A model generated the notes under the pieces. That model worked only from the letters and a program-made list of their open reading frames with translations. It searched no databases and was not told the origin of the DNA. Of a stretch of DNA of 20,083 bases, positions 2,229 through 18,424 are shown in pieces; the first letter of the stretch is position 1, and every line of letters starts with the position of its first letter. The DNA is taken from IMG/VR virus record IMGVR_UViG_3300006916_000540, positions 1 through 20,083 of that record; one strand, given 5' to 3'. The position numbers and the translations under genes were made by a program. Source of the stretch: a virus.

Positions 2229-3681
2229 GATTGAAAAAAAACTGGCTAAATCAAAGGGCGGCCGTGTTGTAAAGTTTATTGAGAATTTTTGCGTGCATGG
2301 CGAGGGTGACTACTTTGGTCAACCGTTCAAACTTGATTTATGGCAGAAGCAAATAATTTATAATTTGTATGAATTAAATGATAACGGCGAGCGTCGTCAT
2401 CGTGAGGCTTTGTTGGGCGTTCCAAAAGGAAACGGAAAGTCCGCATTAATTTCCGCTTTGGGTCTTTATGAACTCCTGGGCAATGGCACCACTTCCCCAC
2501 TGGTGACTGTTGCAGCTGCAAGTTTTGAACAGGCCGACATTGTTTTTGGAAATATGAGGAGTATGTGTGAACAGTCGCCTTATCTTAAAAGCATTACTGA
2601 GGTCTATCAAAATTCAATAGGTGTAAAAAATGGACCTGGTCGTGTCTATCGTGTTGCTGCTAAAGCTGGAACAGCTGACGGTGGTCGGAACTCAGCATTC
2701 ATTGCTGATGAAGTTCACGAATGGTCCACTCCAAACTTGCAACGGGTTCATTATGTTTTATCTAACAACACAGCCAAGCGTAAGGATTCATTAATTTTAA
2801 ATATTACAACTGCTGGTTATGACCTGGACACTCTTTGTGGCCGTCTTTACTTACGTGGAAAGCGTAAACAATCAGGTGAGTCTAACGATCCCGATTTTTA
2901 TTTTTACTGGTTGGAGCCTGATGAAAAAGACGATTTTGAAAGTGAGGACACCTGGCGAAAAGTAAACCCTGCACTTGCTGGTGGTTGGTGGCCGATTGAG
3001 AACTTACGCCGTCGTCGTGCTGCTTTGCCGTTGCCTGAGTTCCAGCGTTATCATCTCAATATGTGGACTCGTACCCAGGATGAGTCCTGGTTGCCTGATG
3101 GTTTGTGGTCTGAGTTAGCTGACTCATCAATAAAATTAGAACCTGATTGGCCTACTTATGTTGGTGTTGACATGGCTATCAAGCATGATTCAGTTGCTGT
3201 TGTTTGGGGACAGATGGACCCTGAGTCAGGTTTGATTTATGTCGATGCGAAGATTTGGCGTAATGAGGGAGTCATGTTTGACTATGCTGAAATTGAAACC
3301 TTTATAGTTAATTTAAACCGTGACTTTAATTTGGTTGAGGTTGCTTATGACCCTGCTTTCTTTGAACGTTCGGCTCAGGCTTTGTATGACCAAAACGTAC
3401 CGATGGTTGAGTTTCCTCAATCTCACGGCAGGATGGTTCCTGCTTGCGGAGTCAGTTATGAGTTAATAACTTCAAAGAAAGTCAGGCATAAAAATCAAAG
3501 CACGTTTAACGATCAAGTCTTGTCTGCGGTTTCACGTCCTACTGACCGTGGTTTTCGATTGTCAAAAGGTAAAAGCAAGAGAAAAATTGACGGTGCTATC
3601 GCCATGGTTATGTGTTTGGACCGTTTAACCTACCCAACTAGGCCAGCTGAACCATCCAACATCGGTATTGTAGAATGGTGA
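2215..3681 (+). CDS. terL: terminase large subunit (ATPase and nuclease)
   Basis: 488 residues from the ATG at 2215. A longer in-frame reading from 2170 (15 extra residues) lies wholly within the zinc-ribbon gene, whereas 2215 has AAGG upstream. Walker A is GVPKGNGKS (68-76) and Walker B with catalytic Glu is AFIADE (161-166), so the N-terminal half is the packaging motor ATPase. The C-terminal RNase H-like nuclease shows acidic residues in GVDM (D319), AYDP (D379) and KIDGA (D459), matching the metal ligands of HK97-like terminases (Terminase_1 family). It cuts concatemeric DNA and pumps it into the prohead through the portal. It overlaps the next small gene if that gene starts at 3675. Confidence 0.95.
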   Translation: MTKSEIEKKLAKSKGGRVVKFIENFCVHGEGDYFGQPFKLDLWQKQIIYNLYELNDNGERRHREALLGVPKGNGKSALISALGLYELLGNGTTSPLVTVAAASFEQADIVFGNMRSMCEQSPYLKSITEVYQNSIGVKNGPGRVYRVAAKAGTADGGRNSAFIADEVHEWSTPNLQRVHYVLSNNTAKRKDSLILNITTAGYDLDTLCGRLYLRGKRKQSGESNDPDFYFYWLEPDEKDDFESEDTWRKVNPALAGGWWPIENLRRRRAALPLPEFQRYHLNMWTRTQDESWLPDGLWSELADSSIKLEPDWPTYVGVDMAIKHDSVAVVWGQMDPESGLIYVDAKIWRNEGVMFDYAEIETFIVNLNRDFNLVEVAYDPAFFERSAQALYDQNVPMVEFPQSHGRMVPACGVSYELITSKKVRHKNQSTFNDQVLSAVSRPTDRGFRLSKGKSKRKIDGAIAMVMCLDRLTYPTRPAEPSNIGIVEW

Positions 3682-3815
3682 GAGCCATGTTTATTGCTAT
3701 TGAAGTCATCGGCTTGCTATTTATTGTGGCTGGTGTCTATGCATATAGTCAACCTATGGCTTACATTGTATTTGGTGCTGGTCTTTTGATGGGGAGCTAT
3801 TTTTATAACCGATGA
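3675..3815 (+). CDS. small two-helix membrane protein
   Basis: 46 residues from ATG 3675, which overlaps the terminase stop by 7 bp. An alternative ATG at 3687 gives 42 residues and has GGTGAG four bases upstream, so the start is uncertain. The product is almost entirely hydrophobic: two probable transmembrane helices (roughly residues 6-20 and 23-42 of the longer form) and a short NR tail. The stop overlaps the portal ATG in the compact ATGA arrangement typical of coupled genes. No function is known. A tiny membrane protein between terminase and portal could be involved in lysis or envelope effects, but that is a guess. Confidence 0.6.
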   Translation: MVRAMFIAIEVIGLLFIVAGVYAYSQPMAYIVFGAGLLMGSYFYNR

Positions 3816-5411: not shown

Positions 5412-6757
5412 TGCCTTATTCAATAATCCACGACCATCCTGAATGTCCTATTGAGTCAGGGGAACCTGGACCAGACCAGGTTGGTGGTCATGCTGTTGTC
5501 AAAGATGATGACGGTCAATTGATGGGTTGTCATAAATCGCATGAGTCAGCTGAGGACCAAATCAAAGCACTTTATTCTGCTGAAAATGAGAGAGCTAAAC
5601 ATTCTGATGCGTCAACGCCTGCACCAAAAGAGGACCAAATCGAGGGATCTAAAGAAAAGAAAAGTTTAAGGCATGAGATTAATGTTCCTGAGTTTATCCG
5701 CAATAATGCTGCTCGTGGTTTAGAAAATTTACAGTTTGCTGGTCAAGGTTTAACTGATAAAACTAAAAGGGAGGCACGTCAAATGCGTGATGGTGTTGTA
5801 TCTCATGATAAAGCACTCCGCATGCAGGCATGGTTCAAAAGACACTTACTGGATTTTGAAGGTGAGGCTGCTAAGAAGTTTTTAAGTGGCGAAAGCGACC
5901 GCATGAGTCCTGGACTCGTGGCGTGGCTTTTGTGGGGTGGCTCTTTGTCAAAAGCTACCCGTCTTGATGCTATGCGTTGGGCCGAGCGTCAAGTTGCACG
6001 TCATGCTGATGATCGTGCAATGTCTAGGCCACAGCCTGCTAGTCAGGCGATTGGTATTATAAAACGCATGAGCGAAAATAAAGAAACCCGTTTTTTTGAA
6101 CTGCGGGCTGAAGCTGATATTGATAGCGACGATTTAATTTTTACTGGTTATGCATCTGTTTTCGATTCGCCTTATCGTGTCGCTGATTCTCGTGGTGTTT
6201 ATAACGAAACTGTAACCCGTGGAGCTTTCTCAAAAACTCTAAATGAACAGGACGATGTAAAGTTTTTAATTAATCATGATGGCATTCCATTGGCTCGCAC
6301 TAAGTCTAAAACTTTAGAACTTAGAGAGGATGAGCATGGTTTGTTTGTAAAAGCCAAGTTAGATGAGTCAAACCCTAAAGTTGCAGAGATCGCGTCTGCA
6401 CTAAAAAGAGGCGATTTGTCAGAGATGAGCTTTGGTTTTCATGCTATCAAAGATGAATTTACCGAGAATGGCGAAACTAGAACGCTCAAAGAACTTAGAT
6501 TATTAGATGTATCTGTTGTCACATGGCCTGCAAATCCAGCAACACTTGCGAGTATTCGTGGTGTTGACCTGGGCGAACTCCAGGAAGTCTTAGCTGAGGT
6601 TAGGTCTGACCAGGAGCCAACTGAGGACCAGGTGGCGAAAATAACTGAAGTAATTGGTCAATTAAACGATCTCTTACCGAAGGCTCAAGTTACTAAATCA
6701 AATATTAGGGCTGCGGTTCGTGATTTAGAAGTTTGGGCGATGCAGAGCCGTTCTTAA
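5411..6757 (+). CDS. prohead (capsid maturation) protease with long N-terminal extension
   Basis: 448 residues, roughly twice the length of HK97 gp4-type proteases. The U35-like protease occupies ~220-395: it starts at MSENKETRFFE, has candidate catalytic H289 (FLINHDG) and S340 (LSEMSFGF), and ends in the family motif LLDVSVVTWPANP. The extension has two parts. Residues ~25-58 carry a GHAVVKDDDGQLMGCHKS-type motif that in my recollection also occurs in other phage head proteins. Residues ~88-200 form a helical segment (VPEFIRNNAARGL, AWLLWGG, MRWAERQVA). After 395 there is an acidic tail. The protease removes the capsid protein's delta domain during maturation. No good ribosome-binding site precedes the internal Met220, so a single fused product is favoured. 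Confidence 0.9.
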   Translation: MPYSIIHDHPECPIESGEPGPDQVGGHAVVKDDDGQLMGCHKSHESAEDQIKALYSAENERAKHSDASTPAPKEDQIEGSKEKKSLRHEINVPEFIRNNAARGLENLQFAGQGLTDKTKREARQMRDGVVSHDKALRMQAWFKRHLLDFEGEAAKKFLSGESDRMSPGLVAWLLWGGSLSKATRLDAMRWAERQVARHADDRAMSRPQPASQAIGIIKRMSENKETRFFELRAEADIDSDDLIFTGYASVFDSPYRVADSRGVYNETVTRGAFSKTLNEQDDVKFLINHDGIPLARTKSKTLELREDEHGLFVKAKLDESNPKVAEIASALKRGDLSEMSFGFHAIKDEFTENGETRTLKELRLLDVSVVTWPANPATLASIRGVDLGELQEVLAEVRSDQEPTEDQVAKITEVIGQLNDLLPKAQVTKSNIRAAVRDLEVWAMQSRS

Positions 6758-9052: not shown

Positions 9053-9474
9053 TGGCTAGTTTTTCAACGGTCCGAACTGCCGTTAAGACAACAATTGGAA
9101 ATAATATATCGAGCATTCGTGTTTATGACACTATTGATGACATGATTAATGTACCTGCTGCGGTCTTGATTCCTACTTCAATTAATTTTACTGAGGCCAT
9201 GGCTCGTGGCACTGACCGTTATGAATTTGATATTTTAGTCGTTGTATCAAGGACCGATTCACGATCGGGCCAAAATCAACTAGATGCTTTTATTAATGGT
9301 TCAGGTTCTAGTTCTATTCGCCAAGTTATATTTCAAAATTCAGACCTAGGCCAATCTGAGACGTCTGCTGTTGTCACTACAATGAGTGACTATGGAGCAA
9401 CTTATGCGGTCAATGGTGTTGAGTGCATTGGTGCAAGGCTCGGACTTACTGTATATACCAAGGGGTCAAGTTAA
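9052..9474 (+). CDS. probable tail terminator / tail completion protein
   Basis: 140 residues. Alternating beta strands and an internal LDAFINGSGSSSIRQ segment resemble the tail-terminator (neck) proteins of actinophage-like siphoviruses, which commonly have a similar LDAYL...GSSSVR motif. The protein would cap the finished tail tube and join it to the head. Its ATG overlaps the connector stop by one base, and its stop overlaps the next ATG (TAATG). The call rests on gene order plus a short motif, so it is less certain than the neighbouring head genes. Confidence 0.65.
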   Translation: MASFSTVRTAVKTTIGNNISSIRVYDTIDDMINVPAAVLIPTSINFTEAMARGTDRYEFDILVVVSRTDSRSGQNQLDAFINGSGSSSIRQVIFQNSDLGQSETSAVVTTMSDYGATYAVNGVECIGARLGLTVYTKGSS

Positions 9475-9629: not shown

Positions 9630-9700
9630 TGCCTAAGCACTACGGTGGTGGAAAGAAAAAAAAGGGCGGCATGAAAAAAGGCGGAGGTCGTCGTAGATAA
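9629..9700 (+). CDS. 23-residue Gly/Lys/Arg micropeptide
   Basis: A 24-codon reading frame starts at the A of the previous TAA stop (TAATG) and ends in a TAA that overlaps the next ATG in the same manner. Composition is extreme: apart from MPKHY and one internal Met it is only Gly, Lys and Arg, ending GGGRRR. Purine-rich AAAGGGAGC upstream can serve as a ribosome-binding site. The exact one-base overlap at both ends is strong evidence that it is translated, because a chance frame would not be expected to tile perfectly. Function is unknown; the charge suggests RNA, DNA or membrane binding. Confidence 0.65.
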   Translation: MPKHYGGGKKKKGGMKKGGGRRR

Positions 9701-10431
9701 TGGCGACATTTGTTTTAACTGACGGCCGATTGTTTATGGATGGTTATGATTTTTCAAGCCATACGCAATCAATGACCCTGGATTTGTCTGCTGATGAGGT
9801 TGATGTAACCCCTATAAATTCAGGAGGTTTTAGGTCAAGAATTGCAGGACTTCAAGATGCAAGCCTTGCCGCTAATGGGTTTTTTGAGGCTGGTGTTGGT
9901 AAACCTGACGCTTTGTCAGGGATCTCTGCTGGTTCAGAAATAATTTCAACTGTATCTGCTACTTCGTCTGCTGGTGACATTGCTTATATTTTAAAATCTA
10001 GACAATTCTCTTATCAGATTGGTGGATCGATTGGCGACGCTATGCCTTTTAGTATTAATAATTCTAACAGTTCTGACCGTGCTGTTCGAGGCACTATCAT
10101 GGTTGACGACTCTGCAAATTTAACCGCTACTGGTAATTCAACAGGCCGCCAACTTGGAGCTGTTGCTGCGGGCAAGTCTTTATATGTTGCTGCTCATGTG
10201 GTTTCCGTATCAGGGACTTCGACACCTACTTTGGCTTTGAAAGTTCAAAGTGATGATAATGCATCTTTTACTTCTGCAACTGATCGAATAACTTTGACTA
10301 ACTTTACTGCTGTTGGAGCTCAATATTCAAAAGTCGCTGGTGCTATTACTGATGATTACTTCCGTATAAATTACACTTTGTCAGGAACTTCCCCATCGTT
10401 TAAAGTTTTTATAACTGTGGGGATCGTTTAG
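9700..10431 (+). CDS. tail-tube-like structural protein with extra C-terminal domain
   Basis: 243 residues. The first ~60 residues (MATFVLTDG, SMTLDLSADEVDVT, FRSRIAGLQDASL) match the start of the smaller tail protein encoded at 18017, so the two are paralogues. After ~residue 115 comes a beta-rich domain, with segments GKSLYVAAHVVSVSGTS and YFRINYTLSGTSPSF, typical of a module seen in many marine phage structural proteins and probably a surface jelly-roll or Ig-like fold. It follows the tail terminator and ends before a strong terminator. It could be the major tail protein, a tail decoration or a neck component; 18017 is the better placed tube subunit. Confidence 0.75.
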   Translation: MATFVLTDGRLFMDGYDFSSHTQSMTLDLSADEVDVTPINSGGFRSRIAGLQDASLAANGFFEAGVGKPDALSGISAGSEIISTVSATSSAGDIAYILKSRQFSYQIGGSIGDAMPFSINNSNSSDRAVRGTIMVDDSANLTATGNSTGRQLGAVAAGKSLYVAAHVVSVSGTSTPTLALKVQSDDNASFTSATDRITLTNFTAVGAQYSKVAGAITDDYFRINYTLSGTSPSFKVFITVGIV

Positions 10432-10479: not shown

Positions 10480-10538
10480 AAAGGACCCGCACCATCTGTA
10501 TGCATTGCAGCCTTCAATGGTGCGGGTTTGTCCTTTTT
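10480..10538 (+). terminator. long-stem transcription terminator
   Basis: CCCGCACCAT (10486-10495) pairs perfectly with ATGGTGCGGG (10517-10526). A lower stem AAAGGA (10480-10485) pairs with TCCTTT (10531-10536) across a four-base TTTG bulge, and five T's follow (10534-10538). The 21-base loop can itself form a small CTG...CAG hairpin. It would end transcription of the packaging/head block before the fibre genes. Confidence 0.8.
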
Positions 10539-10584
10539 ATGGGCTTTTGGTCCTGGCACTACTAGGCCTGGTCTTTATTTAAAT

Positions 10585-10608
10585 GTCTTAGAATGGCTTA
10601 AAGTGGCC
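10585..10608 (+). repeat. 24-nt intergenic box, copy 1
   Basis: Begins GTCTTAGAATGGC and ends AAAGTGGCC. It matches the box at 17868-17891 at 22 of 24 positions and contains two GTGGC/ATGGC half-sites 10-11 bases apart, about one helical turn. It lies after the terminator and 48 bases (start to start) before the CTAGGCCA element. A protein-binding site for a transcription activator is the simplest reading. Confidence 0.6.
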
Positions 10609-10632
10609 TGTTTATTTCTTGTTTTTTTGGCT

Positions 10633-10675
10633 CTAGGCCATAACTCTAGGGATCCGTGGTTTTTCTAGTATTCTT
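10633..10675 (+). promoter_or_regulatory. bipartite late-promoter-like element, copy 1
   Basis: CTAGGCCA (10633-10640), 26 bases, then AGTATTCTT (10667-10675). The same two words with the same 26-base gap occur at 17944-17986. Within it TAGTAT (10666-10671) fits a -10 box, leaving nine bases to the ATG at 10681, so the transcript would have almost no leader. Confidence 0.6.
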
Positions 10676-10680
10676 TGCTC

Positions 10681-11151
10681 ATGCCTAGTGGATTTAAAAC
10701 TTTCGCCGTTAGTGAAGTCTTGACGGCTGCTGATGTTAATAATTATTTAATGGAGCAGGCCGTTGCTGTCTTTGCTGATTCAACTGCTCGTGACGCTGCA
10801 ATAACTTCGCCTGAAAATGGCCAGGCTTGTTTTTTACTCGACTCAAATTCTTTGCAGTTTTATTATTCGTCTGCCTGGAATAACTTTATTGGCGAAGGTG
10901 ATATCACTGGTGTAACTATCACAACTGCTTCAACTTCAGGACTTGCAGGTGGGTCCAGCTCTACTTCAGGTGCTTTTGCATCTACTTTAACTATTGCACC
11001 TGCGTCTGCAAGTTCTGCAACTGTTGCTGGTTCTGATATTGTTCTGATTGGTGACGCTGATGACTCGAATAATTTAAAAAGGACCACGGCTCAAGATATA
11101 GCTAACTTGGCTGCATCGGGACTGGACCCATTTTTATTAATGGGTGCTTAA
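10681..11151 (+). CDS. tail fibre / baseplate-associated protein
   Basis: 156 residues from ATG 10681; a TTG two codons upstream (10675) is the only alternative. There is no Shine-Dalgarno, consistent with a leaderless message from the TAGTAT box. The N-terminal pattern FAVSEVLTAADVNNYLMEQ followed by FADSTARDAA and an aromatic FYYSSAWNNF turn is a common start of fibre-like proteins in marine phages. The rest is Ser/Thr/Ala-rich and low in aromatic residues, as in extended trimeric fibres, and includes ASSATVAGSDIVLIGDADDSNNLKR-like segments. It is the first gene of the fibre cluster after a terminator and promoter. Confidence 0.7.
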   Translation: MPSGFKTFAVSEVLTAADVNNYLMEQAVAVFADSTARDAAITSPENGQACFLLDSNSLQFYYSSAWNNFIGEGDITGVTITTASTSGLAGGSSSTSGAFASTLTIAPASASSATVAGSDIVLIGDADDSNNLKRTTAQDIANLAASGLDPFLLMGA

Positions 11152-11169
11152 TAAAAGAAAGGAGTATGA

Positions 11170-11499
11170 ATGGCGACAGCATATAAAGTTCTAGGTCAAA
11201 CTGGTGACGCAAGTGCTAACAATGTAACTCTTTACACTTGTCCATCAAGTACTGAGACAATTGTAAGCACTTTAGTTATTGCTAACAGGGAGGCTGCGGT
11301 AAACACTTTTAGAGTTGCTGTAAGACCTGACGGGGCTACTTTGGCTAATGAGCATTATTTAGCTTATGACGTTAGCATTGCAGCAAATGACACTTTGACA
11401 CTCACATTGGGTATAACAATGGATGCGTCTGATTTATTAACTGTTGGTGCAAGCGATGCAAATGTATCTTTTAGTTTATTTGGCAGTGAGATATCTTAA
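11170..11499 (+). CDS. small structural (fibre-associated) protein
   Basis: 109 residues with AAAGGAG upstream of the ATG. The pattern YKVLGQTGDAS, then LYTCPSSTETIVSTLVIANR, then LAYDVSIAANDTLTLTLGIT is a compact beta sandwich that I recognise from many marine phage fibre clusters, where it lies beside adhesin genes. Its role is not established; decoration or attachment of the fibre is likely. The stop is directly abutted by the ATG of the glycine-rich gene. Confidence 0.65.
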   Translation: MATAYKVLGQTGDASANNVTLYTCPSSTETIVSTLVIANREAAVNTFRVAVRPDGATLANEHYLAYDVSIAANDTLTLTLGITMDASDLLTVGASDANVSFSLFGSEIS

Positions 11500-12432
11500 A
11501 TGTCTATAGTTTTAGCATCAAACAGTGGCAGTGAAGGTGGTAAATTCAAAACTGTATCAGCAACTGCTGGAACGGTTACTGTCACTACTTTTCAGCCTGA
11601 CTACTTAGTTGTAGCGGGCGGCGGTGGTGGTGGTAATAACTACGGCGGCGGTGCTGGCGGGGGCGGTTTTCAAACTTTTTACTCTACAGATCGTAACGGT
11701 GGTTCTTTTAATGATGTAACTTTTCCAATAGATTGTGCCGTCGGTATTGAATATACCGTGACCGTTGGTGCAGGTGGTAGCTCAGGTTCAACAGGTTCAG
11801 ATAGTGTATTTTCAACAATAACCGCTAAAGGCGGTGGTGAGGGTGGAACATTAGATAATACTGACGCTGCGTCAAGGGACGGCGGAAGTTCAGGTGGTGG
11901 TGGAGCTAGAATTGGTGGCACTAGTGCTGGGACACAGTATGCACGTCAAGGCAACAAAGGTGGAGCTGGTGGTGGTGTTGGTTCTGGAGTTGGAGCCGCA
12001 GGCGGCGGCGGCGGTGCTGGTGGAGGCGGTGGTGCTGGCGATAATAGTGGTTTAACAACAGGTGGTAATGCAGGAACAGGTAGAAACTCAAATATAACAG
12101 GTAGTGCAGTTGGTATGGCTGGTGGCGGTGCTGGCGGGGCTGGTAATAACTCGGTTCCAAATAATTCAGGTAATGAAGGAGGCGGAAATGGCGGATCTAA
12201 TCAGAACGGTGTTGACGCAAATGCAGGCACTGTGAACACTGGAGGCGGCGGCGGCGGCGGTCGTGCTGGTGGCGGCGGAGGGGCTGGCGGAAGTGGTTTA
12301 GTAGTTTTAAGATTTCCAACTGCTGATAGGTCCATAACTGTTGGTGCTGGTTTAACTTCATCAAGTGCTACTGATGGTTCAGACACCGTTGTTTCGTTTA
12401 CAGCTGGCACAGGAACGGTTGTATTTTCATAA
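11500..12432 (+). CDS. polyglycine-rich candidate receptor-binding adhesin
   Basis: 310 residues. About residues 35-270 contain repeated runs of Gly (up to seven in a row) broken by Ala, Ser and Asn, framed by an N-terminal beta segment (VSATAGTVTVTTFQPDYLVV) and a closing GSGLVVLRFPT motif. Similar proteins in T-even-like phages (gp38-type adhesins) fold as polyglycine-II sandwiches whose loops contact the host receptor; that comparison is inference here. The last ~40 residues (ITVGAGLTSSSATDGSDTVV) look like a separate beta domain. Long G-rich tracts raise strand GC far above neighbours and create proline-rich antisense frames with no gene value. Confidence 0.7.
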   Translation: MSIVLASNSGSEGGKFKTVSATAGTVTVTTFQPDYLVVAGGGGGGNNYGGGAGGGGFQTFYSTDRNGGSFNDVTFPIDCAVGIEYTVTVGAGGSSGSTGSDSVFSTITAKGGGEGGTLDNTDAASRDGGSSGGGGARIGGTSAGTQYARQGNKGGAGGGVGSGVGAAGGGGGAGGGGGAGDNSGLTTGGNAGTGRNSNITGSAVGMAGGGAGGAGNNSVPNNSGNEGGGNGGSNQNGVDANAGTVNTGGGGGGGRAGGGGGAGGSGLVVLRFPTADRSITVGAGLTSSSATDGSDTVVSFTAGTGTVVFS

Positions 12433-12842
12433 TGGCACACTACGCATTTTTAAATGACAGCGATGAGGTTATTGAAGTAATTACTGGCATTGATGAAAAT
12501 GAAACAGCAACCTTGCCAGATGGTTTTGCAAATTGGGAGGCTTTTTATTTATCAATGCGTCCAAATGCAGTGAAGTGTTTAAGAACAAGTTTTAACACTT
12601 TTCAAAATAATCACGTTTTAGGTGGCACTCCTTTTCGTGGTAATTATGCAGGTGTGGGTTATATTTATGATGAAGATGATGATTTTTTCTACCCGCCAAA
12701 GCCTTTTAACAGTTGGGTCAAAGACTCAACAAACGTTAAATGGGTTGCACCTATAGCTTGTCCTGGTCAAGAAATTTTGTATTCCTGGGATGAAGATTCT
12801 TATCAAGCAGATAATTCAACTGGTTGGGTGGAGCTTGTTTAA
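12432..12842 (+). CDS. fibre-cluster protein (marine phage hypothetical)
   Basis: 136 residues. It starts at the A of the upstream stop (TAATGG). The pattern MAHYAFLNDSDEVIEVITG, then TSFNTF, RGNYAGVGYIYDEDDDFFYPPKPF and W-rich YSWDEDSY is a widespread small protein next to tail fibres of marine phages. Its role is not known; a fibre tip, fibre chaperone or assembly catalyst are all possible. It closes the fibre cluster, and the following 34-base gap contains a candidate promoter. Confidence 0.65.
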   Translation: MAHYAFLNDSDEVIEVITGIDENETATLPDGFANWEAFYLSMRPNAVKCLRTSFNTFQNNHVLGGTPFRGNYAGVGYIYDEDDDFFYPPKPFNSWVKDSTNVKWVAPIACPGQEILYSWDEDSYQADNSTGWVELV

Positions 12843-12861
12843 AAATAAATTTTAAAGTACA

Positions 12862-12870
12862 TGCTATAGT
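12862..12870 (+). promoter_or_regulatory. extended -10 promoter, probable leaderless start
   Basis: TGC plus TATAGT (12865-12870) is an extended -10 box. Six bases later is GTG at 12877. A transcript starting at its usual distance would begin at or next to that start codon, and there is no Shine-Dalgarno. It would drive the DUF6065-like gene separately from the fibre cluster. Confidence 0.5.
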
Positions 12871-12876
12871 TTGTTT

Positions 12877-13632
12877 GTGGAAGTTAAAGTCATACCAAAA
12901 ATCGATAAATATAAAGAAATATTAAAACTTTATCCGCCGCAAAGTTCTAATAAGTTTTTACCAAATTGGTATAAAAAACAAAAAATAGGAAACCAACTAG
13001 ACACTTTTAAGCATTTTAATGGTCATCCGCATGAAGGTGTCATGACCGCTAAGAATTGTCCAGCTATCCAGGATTATTTAACTAGTGGATTTATTATTCC
13101 AACTTGGTTTAATATGACTTTTACAACTAGTCTTGATGAGCACGGTCAAAAAGTGCAAAGTTGGGACACTTCAATCCGCAAGTCTTATGATGATAAAATT
13201 GAATATCATATTGATGACCATATTTTAGACCAAACTGTTTATATGGATATTGGCAGGACTGTTGATAACAGAATATTAAAGTTTCAACTTCCTTATGTTT
13301 TTAAAATTCCTGACGGTTATAACATAATGTATCAAGACCCGTTTTATCATTTTAGAAAAGATATTAGGTGTTTGACAGGAATTGTTGAGGGAGATAAATG
13401 GGGATCAATTGCTTTTCCTTTTGAAATATTAAAAGACGAGTTTGAGTTAAAAGCTGGCACTCCCTTGGTTCATTGTTTTTTGTATAAAAGAGAAAATTAT
13501 AACCTAGACTTAAATATTGAACCTGACCCAACCAAAAAGGAATATGACGAGATTCAACTGGCTTATAAAAAATTGCATATTTCAGGTAAAACTTACAAAA
13601 CCGATAAAAATTGGGGCAGTTATTTAAGTTAA
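12877..13632 (+). CDS. DUF6065-like uncharacterised protein
   Basis: 251 residues from GTG 12877; a TTG two codons upstream (12871) is the alternative. I chose GTG because it sits six bases behind the TATAGT box. Features recalled from a family widespread in cyanophages and marine phages, which I believe is DUF6065, are FLPNWYKK, TAKNCPAIQDYLTSGFIIP, PYVFKIPDGYN, PFPFE and a late KAGTPLVHCFLYKRE. Family members are ~230-260 residues and lack an assigned activity. It lies between fibre and lysis genes, probably as its own transcription unit. The family assignment is from memory of motifs. Confidence 0.6.
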   Translation: MEVKVIPKIDKYKEILKLYPPQSSNKFLPNWYKKQKIGNQLDTFKHFNGHPHEGVMTAKNCPAIQDYLTSGFIIPTWFNMTFTTSLDEHGQKVQSWDTSIRKSYDDKIEYHIDDHILDQTVYMDIGRTVDNRILKFQLPYVFKIPDGYNIMYQDPFYHFRKDIRCLTGIVEGDKWGSIAFPFEILKDEFELKAGTPLVHCFLYKRENYNLDLNIEPDPTKKEYDEIQLAYKKLHISGKTYKTDKNWGSYLS

Positions 13633-13667
13633 AATTTAGGCCACGTTTTTGCCTTGGTTTTAATGTT

Positions 13668-13673
13668 TAAAAT
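13668..13673 (+). promoter_or_regulatory. candidate -10 box before the lysin gene
   Basis: TAAAAT (13668-13673) lies eight bases before ATG 13682, with no Shine-Dalgarno between. A TTTAGGCCAC word occurs upstream (13635-13644), the same word as at 17833-17842. Leaderless expression of the lysin is possible; -35 sequence is poor. Confidence 0.35.
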
Positions 13674-13681
13674 TAATCTAT

Positions 13682-14422
13682 ATGAAGTTAAAAGTAGTTA
13701 GGACTCAACTTGGTTCTGATGCAACAAATGGCACGCTTTACATTGATGGTGTTGAGGAGTGCTTTACTCTTGAGGATGAAGTTCGCAGTGGGCCTAAGGT
13801 TTACGGCGAGACGGCCGTTCCTGCTGGTAAGTATGAGATAACTTTTAGAACCATCGGCGGTTTTCACACTAAAACTAAAAAATATTACGATTCACAGCAC
13901 GCTTTTGGTCCTGGTTGGCATCAAGGTATGCTTTGGATTCGTGACGTTCAAAATTTCCAATTCATATTAATTCATCCTGGAAACGATCAATTTGACACCT
14001 ACGGGTGTCTGCTGGTCGGCCAAACTCAGGAGGACCTTGATAAAAATAAAGATGGTTTTATTGGCAGGTCCAGGGCTGCGTATGAGGCCTTGTATCCAAA
14101 AGTTCGAGATGCTTTGCTTGCTGGCGAAAAAGTGACCATTGAATATGTCAATCTAGGCCAGGTTTTGCCTGACCCTGGTAATGATAAAATTGATAAAAAT
14201 AAGGAGCATCTGTTGTCTAAAGGTGATAATGGTTTAAATGTACAATTTTTGCAGACGTTACTGCTTAATTGGGAGGCTGATTGCCTACCTAAGTTTGGAG
14301 CTGACTCTGACTTTGGCGGCGAAACTGAGGAGGCTGTAAAGTCATTCCAAAGCGAAAAAAAATTAGAACCTACTGGCTCAATCAATTTTATGACCGCAGT
14401 TGCTTTAACTAAATATATTTAG
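13682..14422 (+). CDS. lysin-like protein: DUF5675 domain plus peptidoglycan-binding domain
   Basis: 246 residues. Residues 1-~135 resemble DUF5675: TLEDEVR, VPAGKYEI, then ILIHPGN (H98) and YGCLLVG (C109). That His...Cys arrangement recalls L,D-transpeptidase-like folds. Residues 120-131 form a DKNKDGFIG loop with EF-hand-like calcium ligands, often seen in this family. Residues ~178-244 are a PG_binding_1-type domain (GDNGLNVQFLQTLL, FGGETEEAVKSFQ, TGSINFMT). Together they point to a cell-wall enzyme or wall-bound lysis factor, supported by the holin gene ten bases downstream. No signal peptide is visible, so export would depend on the holin. The exact bond attacked is unknown. Confidence 0.75.
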   Translation: MKLKVVRTQLGSDATNGTLYIDGVEECFTLEDEVRSGPKVYGETAVPAGKYEITFRTIGGFHTKTKKYYDSQHAFGPGWHQGMLWIRDVQNFQFILIHPGNDQFDTYGCLLVGQTQEDLDKNKDGFIGRSRAAYEALYPKVRDALLAGEKVTIEYVNLGQVLPDPGNDKIDKNKEHLLSKGDNGLNVQFLQTLLLNWEADCLPKFGADSDFGGETEEAVKSFQSEKKLEPTGSINFMTAVALTKYI

Positions 14423-14431
14423 GAGCAATAA

Positions 14432-14635
14432 ATGGATTTCAAAGATTGGGCCATGAAAGTTGGGATTAGAACTCTCAGGACTTTCATCCAGGCTTTTCTT
14501 GGTATTCTAACTGCATCGGGGACTGGGATGGTTGAGATGGATGTTTTGACTAATGCACTCGTTGCTGGAGCTGTCGCTGCTGTGACCGCTTTACAGAATG
14601 GCCTTGAAGAGTGGACGCCAAAAAATAAAGGCTAA
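14432..14635 (+). CDS. holin-like membrane protein
   Basis: 67 residues with AGGAG about six bases before the ATG. Residues ~13-33 (TLRTFIQAFLGILTASG) and ~38-58 (DVLTNALVAGAVAAVTALQ) form two membrane helices, with a charged EEWTPKNKG tail. The pattern resembles r1t-type phage holins of Gram-positive hosts. It follows the DUF5675 lysin, as expected for a lysis pair. It would form membrane lesions that release or activate the lysin. Assignment is by topology, size and position. Confidence 0.75.
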   Translation: MDFKDWAMKVGIRTLRTFIQAFLGILTASGTGMVEMDVLTNALVAGAVAAVTALQNGLEEWTPKNKG

Positions 14636-14640
14636 ATTAA

Positions 14641-16470
14641 ATTAATTTAGTTAAAAAATTAAATACTATATTTCGTGTTGGGTTAGTTATTTTCTTGATT
14701 ACTCCGTTCCCAGTCTTTGCTGACCATGTACCAACCCAGCCGCCATATGACCAATCGTTAGCTTTGGATTCTACGACTGGTGATTTAACTGTTGGCATTT
14801 ACTCGTCTGATGGTTTTGAGGACTCCCCGCCTACTAAATACACCATATTTTTCACGATCTCTGATTCTGAGATTGACACTTCTAGTTCGTTTTGCGTATC
14901 AACTTCTTTTGGTCATGGTCAAAACTTAACCTGGCAGTATTTTGTTTTTAAGCTCGATGATTTAAAAACCTATTTTGAAAACCCTTATGGAACTTTTAGG
15001 ACTAGGATTCGTGCTGATAATGACACCGATAATTCTTTTAGCACTCTAACTGAGGAATTAACCATTTTTATTCCAAATCAGGAGCCTTTTGTTGGTTCTG
15101 CTGATTGGTCTGCACCAAGTTCTACTTGTTTCGATACTTCAACAACGACAACAACTTCGTCAACTACTTCGTCAACTACTTCGTCTAGCACCACTTCGTC
15201 AACTACTTCGTCTAGCACCACTTCGTCAACGACAACTATGCCACCAAAGCCTGAACCTCCACCGCCGCCGCCAACTACTACTACGACTCTTGCACCAGTG
15301 ATTGTAAAAATTGACGGTGAGGAAGTGGAATATACCCAGGGTGAGCTTGAGGATGGAACCATTGACCGAGATAAAGAAAGGGCTGAAAATGAAAACCTTT
15401 ACGGTTGTTATATGACTAATGCTCAAATTGAGCGAGGTGATTGCGATGTTTTTAATGATGGTAAATCAAGCGATCAAAAGGATGAAACTCTTGAAATTAA
15501 AAATGATGATGACTTTGTTAAAGATGAAAATGCAGGCGAAAATTTGGAGCCTGAAAATGAAAGCATTTTATCTGATGTGGAGATTCAAGAGTTAGAACTT
15601 GAGGCTGAAAAAGAAGCCGAAATCAAAAAAGAATTAGAGGACTCCCCTCTTGCTGAAATAATTGGCGATGATGATGAAAAGGTCCAGGAGTTTGTTGACA
15701 CCATGAAAAAAATTGAGGAAGAGACCGACTTCGATTCTTTAGGTGTTGAGGATGAAGTGATTGTAGTTGACGTTCCTGATGACTTTGAGATTGTAATTGT
15801 TGAGCCTGAAGTTAAGGAAACACCACCAATAATTGAGGACTTTGAGTCTGATGAAGTCCTGGAGCCTAAAAAAGAAATAATTGAAGTTGTTGAGGATGTC
15901 ATTCCTGAATTGCCTGATCGTGAAACTGAAAACGTTGAGGAAGTTGTCGAGGAGTTTGTTGAGTCGCTTAAGCCTGAGACCAAGGTGGAAATAATAGAAG
16001 ATGTTGTTGAGGTTGGTGTTGAGGAATTGACCGAGGAGCAGGTTGCTGTTGTTGCTGAAGTTGTTGAGTCTGCAATTAATGACGTTGAGGATTTAACCGA
16101 GGAGCAGGTTGCTGTTGTTGCTGAAGTCCTTGGCCTTGAGGAGTCTAATGATGTTGCTGTAATTGCTGAGGCTGTAAAGTCAGATAAAGCTGTTGCTGAG
16201 GCTGTTGAGGTTTTTGTTGAGCGTGCTGTTCAGAATGCTAACGTTGAGGACTATAACTTGTCTGATGTTGTTGTTGAGGTTCAAATTGAGGAGTTTCTTG
16301 AAAATCCTGCTGTAATATTCCAGGTGGATTTTGATGAAATTGTTTTCTCTAAATTGGGCGATGACCTTACTAATCAACAAAAAGAAAAGGCACAGGAGGT
16401 CGTCGTTCCTGTAATTATTGCTAGTCAGATAATATCGGCTAGTGTTGTGCCGTTTAGGAGGATAAGATGA
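14641..16470 (+). CDS. large acidic secreted/membrane-anchored protein with Ser/Thr/Pro linker
   Basis: 609 residues if read from ATT 14641; the first standard start is TTG 14695 (591 residues). I prefer upstream because the in-frame codons 14641-14721 give a near-perfect signal peptide: VKKL and an Arg, then a hydrophobic VGLVIFLITPFPVFA ending before DHV. AAAGG lies nine bases before the ATT. A beta-rich head of ~150 residues follows, then a Thr/Ser tract (15139-15240) and a PPPPPP/TTTTT linker. A YGCYMTNAQIERGDC segment comes next, then a very acidic, Val/Glu-rich helical region (from ~15540), and a final hydrophobic helix VVPVIIASQIISAS before RRIR. This suggests an envelope-anchored surface protein. 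It overlaps the next gene by 4 bp. Confidence 0.75.
   Translation: MNLVKKLNTIFRVGLVIFLITPFPVFADHVPTQPPYDQSLALDSTTGDLTVGIYSSDGFEDSPPTKYTIFFTISDSEIDTSSSFCVSTSFGHGQNLTWQYFVFKLDDLKTYFENPYGTFRTRIRADNDTDNSFSTLTEELTIFIPNQEPFVGSADWSAPSSTCFDTSTTTTTSSTTSSTTSSSTTSSTTSSSTTSSTTTMPPKPEPPPPPPTTTTTLAPVIVKIDGEEVEYTQGELEDGTIDRDKERAENENLYGCYMTNAQIERGDCDVFNDGKSSDQKDETLEIKNDDDFVKDENAGENLEPENESILSDVEIQELELEAEKEAEIKKELEDSPLAEIIGDDDEKVQEFVDTMKKIEEETDFDSLGVEDEVIVVDVPDDFEIVIVEPEVKETPPIIEDFESDEVLEPKKEIIEVVEDVIPELPDRETENVEEVVEEFVESLKPETKVEIIEDVVEVGVEELTEEQVAVVAEVVESAINDVEDLTEEQVAVVAEVLGLEESNDVAVIAEAVKSDKAVAEAVEVFVERAVQNANVEDYNLSDVVVEVQIEEFLENPAVIFQVDFDEIVFSKLGDDLTNQQKEKAQEVVVPVIIASQIISASVVPFRRIR
15154..15231 (+). repeat. 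tandem repeats in the Ser/Thr linker
   Basis: Units of 12 bases (ACTTCGTCAACT) and 15 bases (ACTTCGTCTAGCACC) alternate. Two exact 27-base composite copies lie at 15166-15192 and 15193-15219. They encode a TTSSTTSSSTT-type linker. Length is likely to vary between strains by slippage, changing the reach of the surface domain. Confidence 0.85.
16030..16127 (+). repeat. two exact 32-base direct repeats in the acidic region
   Basis: Positions 16030-16061 and 16096-16127 are identical and encode TEEQVAVVAEV, with the surrounding 66-base unit partly conserved (GTTGAGGA before each). This is a recent in-frame duplication of a 22-residue acidic helix. Confidence 0.85.
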
Positions 16471-16697
16471 AAAAAATAATAGGGCTGCTGAAAAAACTTA
16501 ATTTCAAAATGTTTAGTTTTGGTAAGTTTTTCAAATGGCTTAAAAGCATATTAAAAGAGACACTGGCTCAAACTTTTACATTGCTTGGTTTTTTTATTGC
16601 ATGGTTGACTTTGACTGGAACAGCCAAGGACATAGTTGGTGTTGCTATAATTGTGTCGCTTGGTCTTTGGTTATTGACCATTGGCTTTAGAAAATAA
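16467..16697 (+). CDS. two-helix membrane protein
   Basis: 76 residues with AGGAGG seven bases before the ATG, which overlaps the preceding stop (ATGA). The first ~33 residues are basic and amphipathic (MKKIIGLLKKLNFKMF, FFKWLKSILKE). Two membrane helices follow (TFTLLGFFIAWLTLTG and VGVAIIVSLGLWLLTIGF). The GLWLLTIGFRK ending is familiar from marine phages where it follows an acidic secreted protein like the one upstream, so the pair probably works together. It may act as a second holin or a membrane partner; neither can be shown from sequence. Confidence 0.75.
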   Translation: MKKIIGLLKKLNFKMFSFGKFFKWLKSILKETLAQTFTLLGFFIAWLTLTGTAKDIVGVAIIVSLGLWLLTIGFRK

Positions 16698-16709
16698 CCG
16701 AGGAGGTTT

Positions 16710-17141
16710 TTGCTAAGTTTATTAATTGCTTGCTCTTTGTCTTTGCCTGCAACGACTAACGATGTTGCGGTTTATCAGCATTGTATGGACCATCAAGATG
16801 TTTGGGTCCTGGGGAGCAAGTGGTCTGATTTAGTTGAGGAACATTTTAAGCCTGAGGATCATGAAACCGCTTATCGTGTTATTGGTTGTGAAAGCAACGG
16901 GTTTGCGTCTGCTAAAAATCCAACATCAACAGCAAAGGGTTTATGGCAGTTTATTGATAAAACCTGGACCTGGGTGGAGTCCGTGTTAAAAATTGAGGGA
17001 TCTGCATATGACCCTTACCTCTCTACCCGATATGCATCATTTTTAGTTTACAAAACAGAGCAAGGCTGGGGTCATTGGTCTGAGTCTGCTCATTGCTGGG
17101 AGGCACCTAATGAAAAAATTGAACCTACAGAAATTAATTAA
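16710..17141 (+). CDS. SLT/Rpf-like lysozyme (lytic transglycosylase)
   Basis: 143 residues from TTG 16710, with AGGAGG (16701-16706) only three bases upstream. The start is the only one possible after the in-frame TAA of the previous gene. The N terminus is a short hydrophobic LSLLIACSLSLPA segment, a minimal signal peptide with a lipobox-like LIAC. The catalytic domain has IGCESNG with probable catalytic E61, then STAKGLWQF and DPYLSTRYASFLVYK followed by WGHWSESAHCW. That matches transglycosylase-like/Rpf-type muramidases. C60 and the late Cys may form a disulfide, fitting an extracytoplasmic enzyme. It is a second wall-active enzyme beside the DUF5675 protein and could work at entry or lysis. 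Confidence 0.8.
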   Translation: MLSLLIACSLSLPATTNDVAVYQHCMDHQDVWVLGSKWSDLVEEHFKPEDHETAYRVIGCESNGFASAKNPTSTAKGLWQFIDKTWTWVESVLKIEGSAYDPYLSTRYASFLVYKTEQGWGHWSESAHCWEAPNEKIEPTEIN

Positions 17142-17250
17142 TTTAAAATACGAGCTTTACTGGGAGTTTTACTGGTGGCTTGACTCTTTAAATAACAAAA
17201 TTTATAGAAAGTTAATCAAAAAAGAAAAGGACCGACCTAAGTTCTTATAG
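17110..17250 (+). CDS. small basic aromatic protein
   Basis: 46 residues, overlapping the lysozyme gene by 32 bp in another frame. GGGAGG (17098-17103) lies six bases before the ATG, a near-ideal ribosome-binding site, which is the main reason for calling it. The product is rich in Lys and aromatics (YELYWEFYWWLDSL then IYRKLIKKEKD), so it could form an amphipathic membrane-associated helix. It ends just before a promoter-like sequence. No family is recognised; a lysis accessory role would fit the neighbourhood. Confidence 0.55.
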   Translation: MKKLNLQKLINLKYELYWEFYWWLDSLNNKIYRKLIKKEKDRPKFL

Positions 17251-17251
17251 T

Positions 17252-17262
17252 TATGGTAATAT
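17252..17262 (+). promoter_or_regulatory. candidate promoter for the 17299 gene
   Basis: Overlapping -10-like boxes TATGGT (17252-17257) and TAATAT (17257-17262) precede the gene. A start near 17269 gives a ~30-base leader carrying the perfect Shine-Dalgarno at 17287-17293. Confidence 0.4.
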
Positions 17263-17298
17263 CACGCCATGGTTAGCAACGAAATTAAGGAGGTCGTT

Positions 17299-17706
17299 AT
17301 GAGTAAAAAACCTAGGCGGGTACAGCCACCCGTCGTTATAAAGCTACCTAGTGATCCGCAGGTCAATTGGACTAATGGTGAGCTGGTAATTACGGACCGT
17401 CAACTTAATAACTTCTTTGTGGAAGTTAAAAAGCACTGGGACCGTAAGCTCTTGAGGAAACCTAAGAGTCGAGTTGTCCGTCTCAATGAGGCGGTCGATA
17501 AAGTTCTTGAGGCTAAGCAAGAGGTCGAGGACATCAAGTATGAAATTGAGGAATGGAAAGAAAACCTTGAAGGCACCAACTTTGAGGGTACCTTAAAATA
17601 TGAAATGCTTGAGGAGTGCTTGCAGGGCCTTGAGGAGGTCTTTGACCAACTTGAGGAGGTCACTTACAGTGATGGTGACATAATTTTTCCTGGTATGTTC
17701 GACTGA
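17299..17706 (+). CDS. uncharacterised single-gene unit, basic head and acidic coiled-coil tail
   Basis: 135 residues from ATG 17299, chosen because AAGGAGG (17287-17293) lies five bases upstream, the best Shine-Dalgarno in the window. An ATG at 17269 would add ten residues (MVSNEIKEVV) read through that site and is less likely. The N-terminal third is basic (MSKKPRRVQPP and KKHWDRKLLRKPKSRV). The remainder is a heptad-like acidic helix (VEDIKYEIEEWKENLE, LEECLQGLEEVFDQLEE). It stands alone between a candidate promoter and a strong terminator, suggesting separate expression, possibly as a regulator or abundant small protein. No family is recognised. Confidence 0.75.
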   Translation: MSKKPRRVQPPVVIKLPSDPQVNWTNGELVITDRQLNNFFVEVKKHWDRKLLRKPKSRVVRLNEAVDKVLEAKQEVEDIKYEIEEWKENLEGTNFEGTLKYEMLEECLQGLEEVFDQLEEVTYSDGDIIFPGMFD

Positions 17707-17735
17707 GCAGGGATCTCAAGTCACTGAAAATCAAA

Positions 17736-17761
17736 GCCAGGCCTACGGGCCTGGTTTTTTT
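17736..17761 (+). terminator. Rho-independent terminator with UACG tetraloop
   Basis: CCAGGCC (17737-17743), loop TACG, then GGCCTGG (17748-17754), followed by seven T's. The C(UACG)G loop belongs to the exceptionally stable UNCG class. It ends the 17299 unit 30 bases after the stop codon. Confidence 0.92.
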
Positions 17762-17867
17762 ATGCTTATTTAATTGAATATAAAAATATGCGTTTAACTG
17801 CTCTCACGTTGCGTTCTAAGGCGTTAATGTTGTTTAGGCCACCGTTATGCGTAGGTACATTAAAAAC

Positions 17868-17891
17868 GTCTTAGAGTGGCTAAAAGTGGCC
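17868..17891 (+). repeat. 24-nt intergenic box, copy 2
   Basis: Begins GTCTTAGAGTGGC and ends AAAGTGGCC; 22 of 24 bases match copy 1. Its AGTGGCC end (17885-17891) is mirrored by GGCCACT at 17947-17953, so a dyad spans the region. The rest of the 310-base gap (17707-18016) holds the terminator, a TTTAGGCCAC word (17833-17842), an inverted repeat TAGACA/TGTCTA (17924-17946) and the bipartite element; I see no gene or tRNA in it. Confidence 0.6.
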
Positions 17892-17943
17892 AGTACAGAC
17901 GGTTTTAGGCACTGTTTTTTTGTTAGACACGTTTTAGTCTTGT

Positions 17944-17986
17944 CTAGGCCACTAATACGAATATCATTGTTGCTATAAGTATTCTT
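17944..17986 (+). promoter_or_regulatory. bipartite late-promoter-like element, copy 2
   Basis: CTAGGCCA (17944-17951), 26 bases, then AGTATTCTT (17978-17986), the same words and spacing as copy 1. TATAAG (17974-17979) can serve as the -10. Here the tail gene starts further on and has its own AAAAGGA ribosome-binding site, so the message has a normal leader. Confidence 0.6.
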
Positions 17987-18016: not shown

Positions 18017-18424
18017 ATGGCTACTTTTGTATTCACTGATGCGTCAGTGACTATCAACACAGTTGATTTAAGTGATCATGTTCGTTCCGTTACCCTGGAT
18101 ATCTCAGCTGAAGAGCAAGATGATACGGCCATGGGTTCAACTTTTAGGTCAAGAAAAGGTGGATTGAAGGATGCGAGCTTGAGTCTTGAGTTCAACAGTG
18201 ATTTTGCAGCTAGCGAAATCGATGCAACTATATTTCCAATACTTGGGACATCAGTTGCTTTTGTAGTTAAACCTACAAGCGGTGCAGTTAGTTCTACTAA
18301 TCCAAGTTATTCAGGTAACTGTTTAATAACTCAGCACGTTCCTGTTGGGAATGCCGTTGGGGATTTGGCCACGACTTCCGTGACCTGGCCTACAAGCGGA
18401 ACCATCACGAGAGCTACGAGTTAA
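18017..18424 (+). CDS. major tail tube protein (probable)
   Basis: 135 residues with AAAAGGA six bases before the ATG. The start MATFVFTDASVTINTVDLS, then HVRSVTLDISAEEQD, and FRSRKGGLKDASLSLEF is the signature of the short tail tube proteins of actinophage-like siphoviruses. The DFAASEIDATIFPILG and late GNAVGDLATTSVTWP segments also fit. Copies would stack into the tail tube. The immediate neighbours, tail assembly chaperones and tape measure, are the expected partners. It is paralogous to the N-terminal part of the 243-residue protein at 9700. Confidence 0.8.
   Translation: MATFVFTDASVTINTVDLSDHVRSVTLDISAEEQDDTAMGSTFRSRKGGLKDASLSLEFNSDFAASEIDATIFPILGTSVAFVVKPTSGAVSSTNPSYSGNCLITQHVPVGNAVGDLATTSVTWPTSGTITRATS

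Follow-up and report, generated by a model that had tools for sequence, protein, structure and literature searches.

A probable regulon of six predicted activator-type promoters, four of them within genes, over the structural and lysis region of a likely marine actinobacterial phage

The window—that is, the whole stretch of DNA analysed here—is a virus contig of 20,083 bases, in which head, tail, fibre and lysis genes are laid out as follows. The portal, protease and capsid genes are named from their sequences and from the gene order in Pontimonas phage phiPsal1.

129-1577: DNA methyltransferase gene, followed in order by the terminase, portal, protease and capsid genes
9700-10431: gene of the first major tail protein
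10681-17706: fibre/lysis block
18017-18424: gene of the second major tail protein, followed by the start of the tape measure gene

The two major-tail-protein paralogues that flank the fibre/lysis block match PHROGs 9522 and 4574. A megablast comparison of the window with 50,697 phage records gave 0 matches, named phages being without a DNA match; by protein, the closest named relative is phiPsal1, a phage of a marine actinobacterium (52.6% identity in the tail tube and 32.8% in the terminase). Longer relatives contain a tyrosine integrase gene, as read from the sequence, a gene for WhiB (an actinobacterial family), and an attP-like core, CGGYGGTGTCCTACTCTCCC, the complement of which closely matches a repeated sequence of actinobacterial genomes that is read as the 3′ end of 5S rRNA. 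Thus, the window likely derives from a temperate marine actinobacterial phage. An Rfam scan of the window, G003 and G004 and a tRNA scan of the relatives returned no match. One contig (L263) with a tail tube 90% identical lies in a metagenome-assembled genome named Flavobacteriaceae, and is probably a misbinned phage contig.

Two intergenic modules precede the fibre gene and the second tail-tube gene.

10480-10540, + strand: intrinsic terminator after the first tail-tube gene (−26.6 kcal/mol, z −5.8), with a T-rich tail
10578-10608, + strand: 10-bp direct-repeat array with the first 24-nt box (TTTAAATGTC TTAGAATGGC TTAAAGTGGC C; periodicity scan)
10633-10640, + strand: CTAGGCCA of the predicted fibre promoter, exact in the window, centred at −44.5 from the predicted +1
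10669-10674, + strand: −10 hexamer TATTCT of the predicted fibre promoter, predicted +1 at A10681
17733-17758, + strand: intrinsic terminator closing the fibre/lysis block
17861-17891, + strand: 10-bp direct-repeat array with the second 24-nt box (TAAAAACGTC TTAGAGTGGC TAAAAGTGGC C; periodicity scan)
17944-17951, + strand: CTAGGCCA of the predicted tail-tube promoter, centred at −44.5, kept in all close relatives covering the site
17980-17985, + strand: −10 hexamer TATTCT of the predicted tail-tube promoter, predicted +1 at A17992

As the initial annotation had described, exact copies of the two-part word CTAGGCCA-N26-AGTATTCTT stand at 10633-10675 and 17944-17986. The window has no others; the same two matches, and no others, were returned when up to three mismatches were allowed, with shuffled sequences expected to give 0.06. 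Its further observations, namely that the sequence between the two words differs and that a terminator and one of two boxes identical at 22 of 24 positions stand upstream of each module, were borne out, the latter by position and by the folding of strong terminators (for 17725-17765, −19.7 kcal/mol, z −4.6, with a T-rich tail after it). An exact scan of 2.9 million IMG/VR viral contigs detected the two-part word in 15 stretches, in each case upstream of the fibre gene (MPSGFKTF/MANGFKVF) or the second tail-tube gene (MATFVFTD), and in one relative (G009) at both places. Further copies in relatives, the lack of which would have spoken against the annotated module, were thus found at the same two places.

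At the fibre site, the word reads CTAG[GA]CCA in every close relative covering the site, and a TAnnnT hexamer lies 6-8 nt upstream of the ATG in all of them (TATAAT in G004 and TATCAT in L193, for example). The predicted +1, A10681, is the first base of the fibre gene ATG, and the predicted mRNA is therefore leaderless. At the tail-tube site, AGTATTCTT is replaced across lineages by AGTACCAT, AGTACCCT, AGTAGTCT, AGTAGCCT, AGTATTAT or CCTACTCT; the inner bases of the hexamer change, with the TAnnnT frame, a distance of exactly 6 nt and the A opening a conserved AAGTA-like start remaining constant. The mRNA predicted there has a 25-nt leader with an AAAAGGA Shine-Dalgarno site and an ATG at 18017. 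In G003, the fibre and tail-tube sites have both changed to CTAGACCA. The choice of −10 is ambiguous in places; the fibre site of G002, for example, also offers TATAGT at N22. The gap between CTAG[G/A]CCA and the −10 is 27-28 nt at the intergenic sites of every relative, and the sequence within it varies freely, except for a GATC word in many fibre promoters. Hence, both intergenic sites have in all lineages the form of a sigma-A-type promoter, with TAnnnT and a start about 6-7 nt further on. In relatives, the word, its distance of 27-28 nt from the −10 and the interval between the −10 and the A are all retained. This comparison strongly supports the core proposal of a phage-specific late promoter or activator site under selection, in which promoter activity is predicted and lateness is inferred from the kinds of gene concerned, structural and lysis.

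The initial annotation had considered CTAGGCCA by itself to be uninformative, a view that is not upheld: the window contains six copies, all on the + strand, where 0.2 are expected, and the reverse-strand word is absent from the window and from G001-G004. Four of the six copies lie inside genes, in the same codons in 9-19 lineages, with adjacent synonymous sites variable.

3638-3676, + strand: promoter-like site at the end of terL (CTAGGCCA, N25, TAGAAT; synonymous-conservation rank 1/479)
6024-6060, + strand: promoter-like site in the protease region (CTAGGCCA, N23, TATTAT; rank 1/368, tied)
9346-9383, + strand: promoter-like site in the tail-completion gene (CTAGGCCA, N24, TACAAT; rank 1/138, tied)
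14153-14190, + strand: promoter-like site in the endolysin linker (CTAGGCCA, N24, TAAAAT; NLG window 1.0)

The word is retained in 19 of 19 lineages in terL, 14 of 15 in the protease region, 9 of 9 in the tail-completion gene and 16 of 16 in the endolysin gene, counts that are not independent, as the lineages share ancestry. Because the intragenic words are read in different frames (CT-AGG-CCA or CTA-GGC-CA), a single peptide motif does not explain them. Nucleotide profiles showed an invariant block amid variable surroundings at these words, most plainly in the endolysin linker, and the fractions of gene windows as conserved as the word were 0.005, 0.013, 0.034 and 0.007, as compared with 0.78 for a control in the tape-measure gene. 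This control, which has the same tripeptide, is a clean negative one for synonymous constraint: the copy of CTAGGCCA in the tape-measure gene, found only in G001 and G002, was dismissed as a chance occurrence, with its LGQ codons varying freely elsewhere (rank 153/186).

Each conserved intragenic word is followed 23-25 nt on by a −10-like hexamer that is retained in relatives, with some variants (TAGAGT for TAGAAT; TAATAT or TAGTAT for TAAAAT), and in the protease and tail-completion genes the −10 bases constitute a second fully conserved patch. When codons were shuffled synonymously under the given proteins, the probabilities of a chance −10-like hexamer were 0.07, 0.54, 0.07 and 0.37 (product 0.001); taken alone, the intragenic hexamers are only modest evidence. 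The intragenic copies of the word are the strongest evidence for the promoter set.

If +1 is placed 7 nt beyond the −10, predicted starts lie 0-25 nt upstream of a start codon at five of the six sites. At the terL end, a gene for a 42-aa membrane protein has its ATG at 3687, 4 nt downstream of the predicted +1 (3683). In the protease region, where the −10 is invariant across relatives, the predicted +1 coincides with or adjoins the ATG (6068) of the protease proper, within a longer fused frame, suggesting a leaderless mRNA. In the tail-completion gene, the −10 codons are invariant and the predicted +1 (9390) is 84 nt upstream of the next gene (9474). In the endolysin gene, the word is located inside a variable linker in which N24 is retained and indels fall downstream; the predicted +1 (14197) is followed by AAGGAG (14202) and by a TTG (14213) 16 nt after the start, with the PG_binding_1 domain beginning at 14231, so that initiation at the TTG is predicted to yield a 69-aa peptidoglycan-binding domain alone.

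Counted from the predicted +1, the word centres are at −39.5, −40.5, −40.5 and −41.5 in the genes and at −44.5 at both intergenic sites—as far as position goes, the class II layout, in which the activator site lies at about −41.5, in place of or overlapping the −35; the in-gene copies have the classical class II position. The spacing is fixed per site and is 23, 24, 24, 25, 28 and 28 nt between sites, and is therefore not the constant spacing of the class; a single spacing for all six promoters was ruled out, with 23-25 nt within genes and 27-28 nt between them, and word-to-−10 spacing is looser between sites than in most class II activators. Inspection by eye against TTGACA revealed no −35 consensus at the promoters. 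Given that the in-gene words occur on one strand and in the same codons, with a −10-like hexamer and class II centring, the six sites are probably activator-dependent promoters. They would form one regulon over the structural and lysis region, in which a host sigma-A-type RNA polymerase would use the TAnnnT hexamer as its −10, and the asymmetric CTAG[G/A]CCA, oriented with transcription in every case, would stand in for the −35 consensus. An activator bound to this word would contact sigma region 4, as in class II activation, and would turn on all units as a group, probably late. Transcription would then begin on or shortly ahead of start codons, giving leaderless fibre and protease mRNAs and leaders of 4, 16 and 25 nt at other sites. 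TAnnnT −10 hexamers and leaderless transcripts are among the features reported for actinobacteria (PMC3898074, PMC3160421).

The 24-nt box, at 10585-10608 (GTCTTAGAATGGCTTAAAGTGGCC) and 17868-17891 (GTCTTAGAGTGGCTAAAAGTGGCC) with no third copy, spans two whole units, and a portion of the next, of a direct repeat with a unit of about TACAAATGGC/TTAAAATGGC; three units at exactly 10 bp occur at both 10578 and 17861, as in tandem repeats of the BldC/Cox type. Window arrays scored 28-29 in the periodicity scan, where shuffled controls gave 12-18 and once 26, making weaker single scores untrustworthy. The + strand carries every array that is both strong and clearly placed. An array precedes the tail-tube site in most relatives and the fibre site in the window and in G004. 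Others follow the integrase gene in G004 and G008, each of these two holding one further CTAGGCCA, and in G003 and G004 an array lies about 125 bp ahead of the attP core. The box is absent from the fibre site of L007, L015, L016, G001 and G003 and from the tail-tube site of L023, and is thus optional, rather than a core part of the module. The array would be a separate element for another DNA-binding protein. The relatives encode an HTH_17 excisionase-like protein, and the box may have a part in excision, although the array is not consistently at attP, none being seen there in G001, G002, L023 and L032. Probable attP stretches are located in L087/L088 (G003, about 24040-24240), L089/L090 (G004, about 25020-25310) and L086 (G002), with GAGCCAAA arm-type repeats on both sides of a core that corresponds to the 3′ terminus of the 5S rRNA gene.

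Other short words recur in these genomes. Scattered, stoperator-like words are genome-specific and strand-biased: GGGATC occurs in the window 11 times forward (1250, 4575, 5644, 8750, 9919, 10420, 10649, 13401, 16997, 17710 and 19289) versus once in reverse, AGATCCC 12 times forward in G004 (L089/L090) versus 0.25 expected, and GGTCTTG in 29 copies in G003. In L092 (G009), AAAAGCCTAATTT is repeated about 9-11 times versus 0.1 expected. A similar-looking motif, TTAGGTTATTAATGACA, which precedes this fibre gene in a different group of phages, was discarded; it occurs at most once per scanned locus and can be read as the last codons (DKLGY-stop) of the tail gene before it.

An asymmetric word present in one orientation (six forward, none in reverse) and scattered over the late region of a probably temperate phage might also be expected of a repressor or stoperator site that blocks initiation or elongation in the lysogen, as in Cluster A mycobacteriophages. 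This is unlikely, given that each site keeps its own distance to the −10 from lineage to lineage, including within the variable endolysin linker, and that the word centres occupy class II activator positions, whereas a repressor requires neither such centring nor such spacing. Furthermore, CTAGGCCA is at the same positions in all relatives, whereas the better stoperator-like words, GGGATC and AGATCCC, differ between genomes both in the word and in its location.

The location of the modules at both ends of a variable block between two paralogues would suit borders at which the fibre/lysis cassette is recombined or exchanged, or a duplication together with the major-tail-protein genes; yet the spacers differ while the spacing stays, and the word is also selected at four places inside genes. 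This origin is very improbable, although a loss of the promoter-like features at the borders, which would count against it, was not seen in relatives with exchanged blocks. Equally little credit is given to a polar DNA signal outside transcription, acting in recombination, packaging or modification: although the word is strongly one-stranded and the phage has a DNA methyltransferase gene, the fixed distances from CTAGGCCA to −10-like hexamers and gene starts are at odds with such a role, as are its near-confinement to the head, tail and lysis region and its low copy number for a signal of this kind. The best explanation, and a fairly probable one, is a regulon of six activator-type promoters, for which the sequences, positions, conservation and synonymous constraint are observed, and the promoter activity, start sites, timing and activator are predicted.

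A candidate for the activator can be proposed from the relatives, which encode a WhiB protein (PF02467, 1.9e-9) whose nearest solved chains include WhiB1. Its C-terminal part is a zinc-finger region like endonuclease VII, and is conserved in relatives (L086, L088 and L090). WhiB proteins hold sigma-A region 4, and the phage WhiB-zinc-finger protein is for this reason a reasonable candidate. The further proposal that this fusion drives a late regulon of six promoters, with its WhiB half bound to sigma-A region 4 and its zinc half recognising CTAGGCCA, is tentative, possible but doubtful. phiPsal1 has a WhiB gene and lacks the forward word; thus, WhiB alone does not predict the presence of the word. 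If the proposal were true, a WhiB-zinc-finger regulon would be mostly embedded in coding sequence and would lead to leaderless or domain-only products.

More generally, the predicted promoters would provide uncultured marine actinophages with a late regulon that is defined and testable, its start sites being predicted at single-base resolution, and in which a regulatory word is selected within structural genes. Leaderless phage mRNAs are predicted, and the promoter predicted inside the endolysin gene would determine how much free wall-binding domain is made. What appears to be new is the regulon, together with its in-gene promoters and the leaderless or domain-only products predicted from them, and not the kind of mechanism.

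Class II activator-dependent promoters are known in phages from Mu C, lambda CII and T4 MotA. The predicted promoters resemble these in having a sigma-type −10, no −35 consensus and a short asymmetric site near −40, and in serving coordinated late or middle genes; they differ in the word itself, in the location of four of the six within coding sequence, in the variable spacing and in an activator that is solely predicted. As rightward promoters for structural and lysis genes, they are also similar to actinobacteriophage late promoters, of which, according to a 2022 review, few have been characterised in mycobacteriophages, more work being warranted (PMC9262239); no matching late-promoter motif was found in the literature searched on actinobacteriophages. 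Cluster A mycobacteriophage stoperators (PMC9262239, PMC9283540) share the asymmetric word repeated in one orientation; the present set is distinguished by the fixed distance to a −10, the same positions in all relatives, the roughly six copies and the prediction of promoters rather than of terminating sites.

The box array is comparable with those of BldC, Cox and RdfS, in which direct repeats about one helical turn apart have an AT-rich block followed by a GC contact, and small wHTH proteins of this type act at att sites and promoters (PMC5859096, PMC11963761); its unit is 10 bp versus the 9 bp of the BldC whiI repeat. Two-polypeptide endolysins, in which single genes give domain-only products via internal translation starts, have been described (PMC9430671, PMC4777826), an internal promoter for the domain-only product not being mentioned in PMC9430671. 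The window endolysin is like these in its internal in-frame start, predicted to yield the wall-binding domain alone, and unlike them in that an internal promoter is predicted as well.
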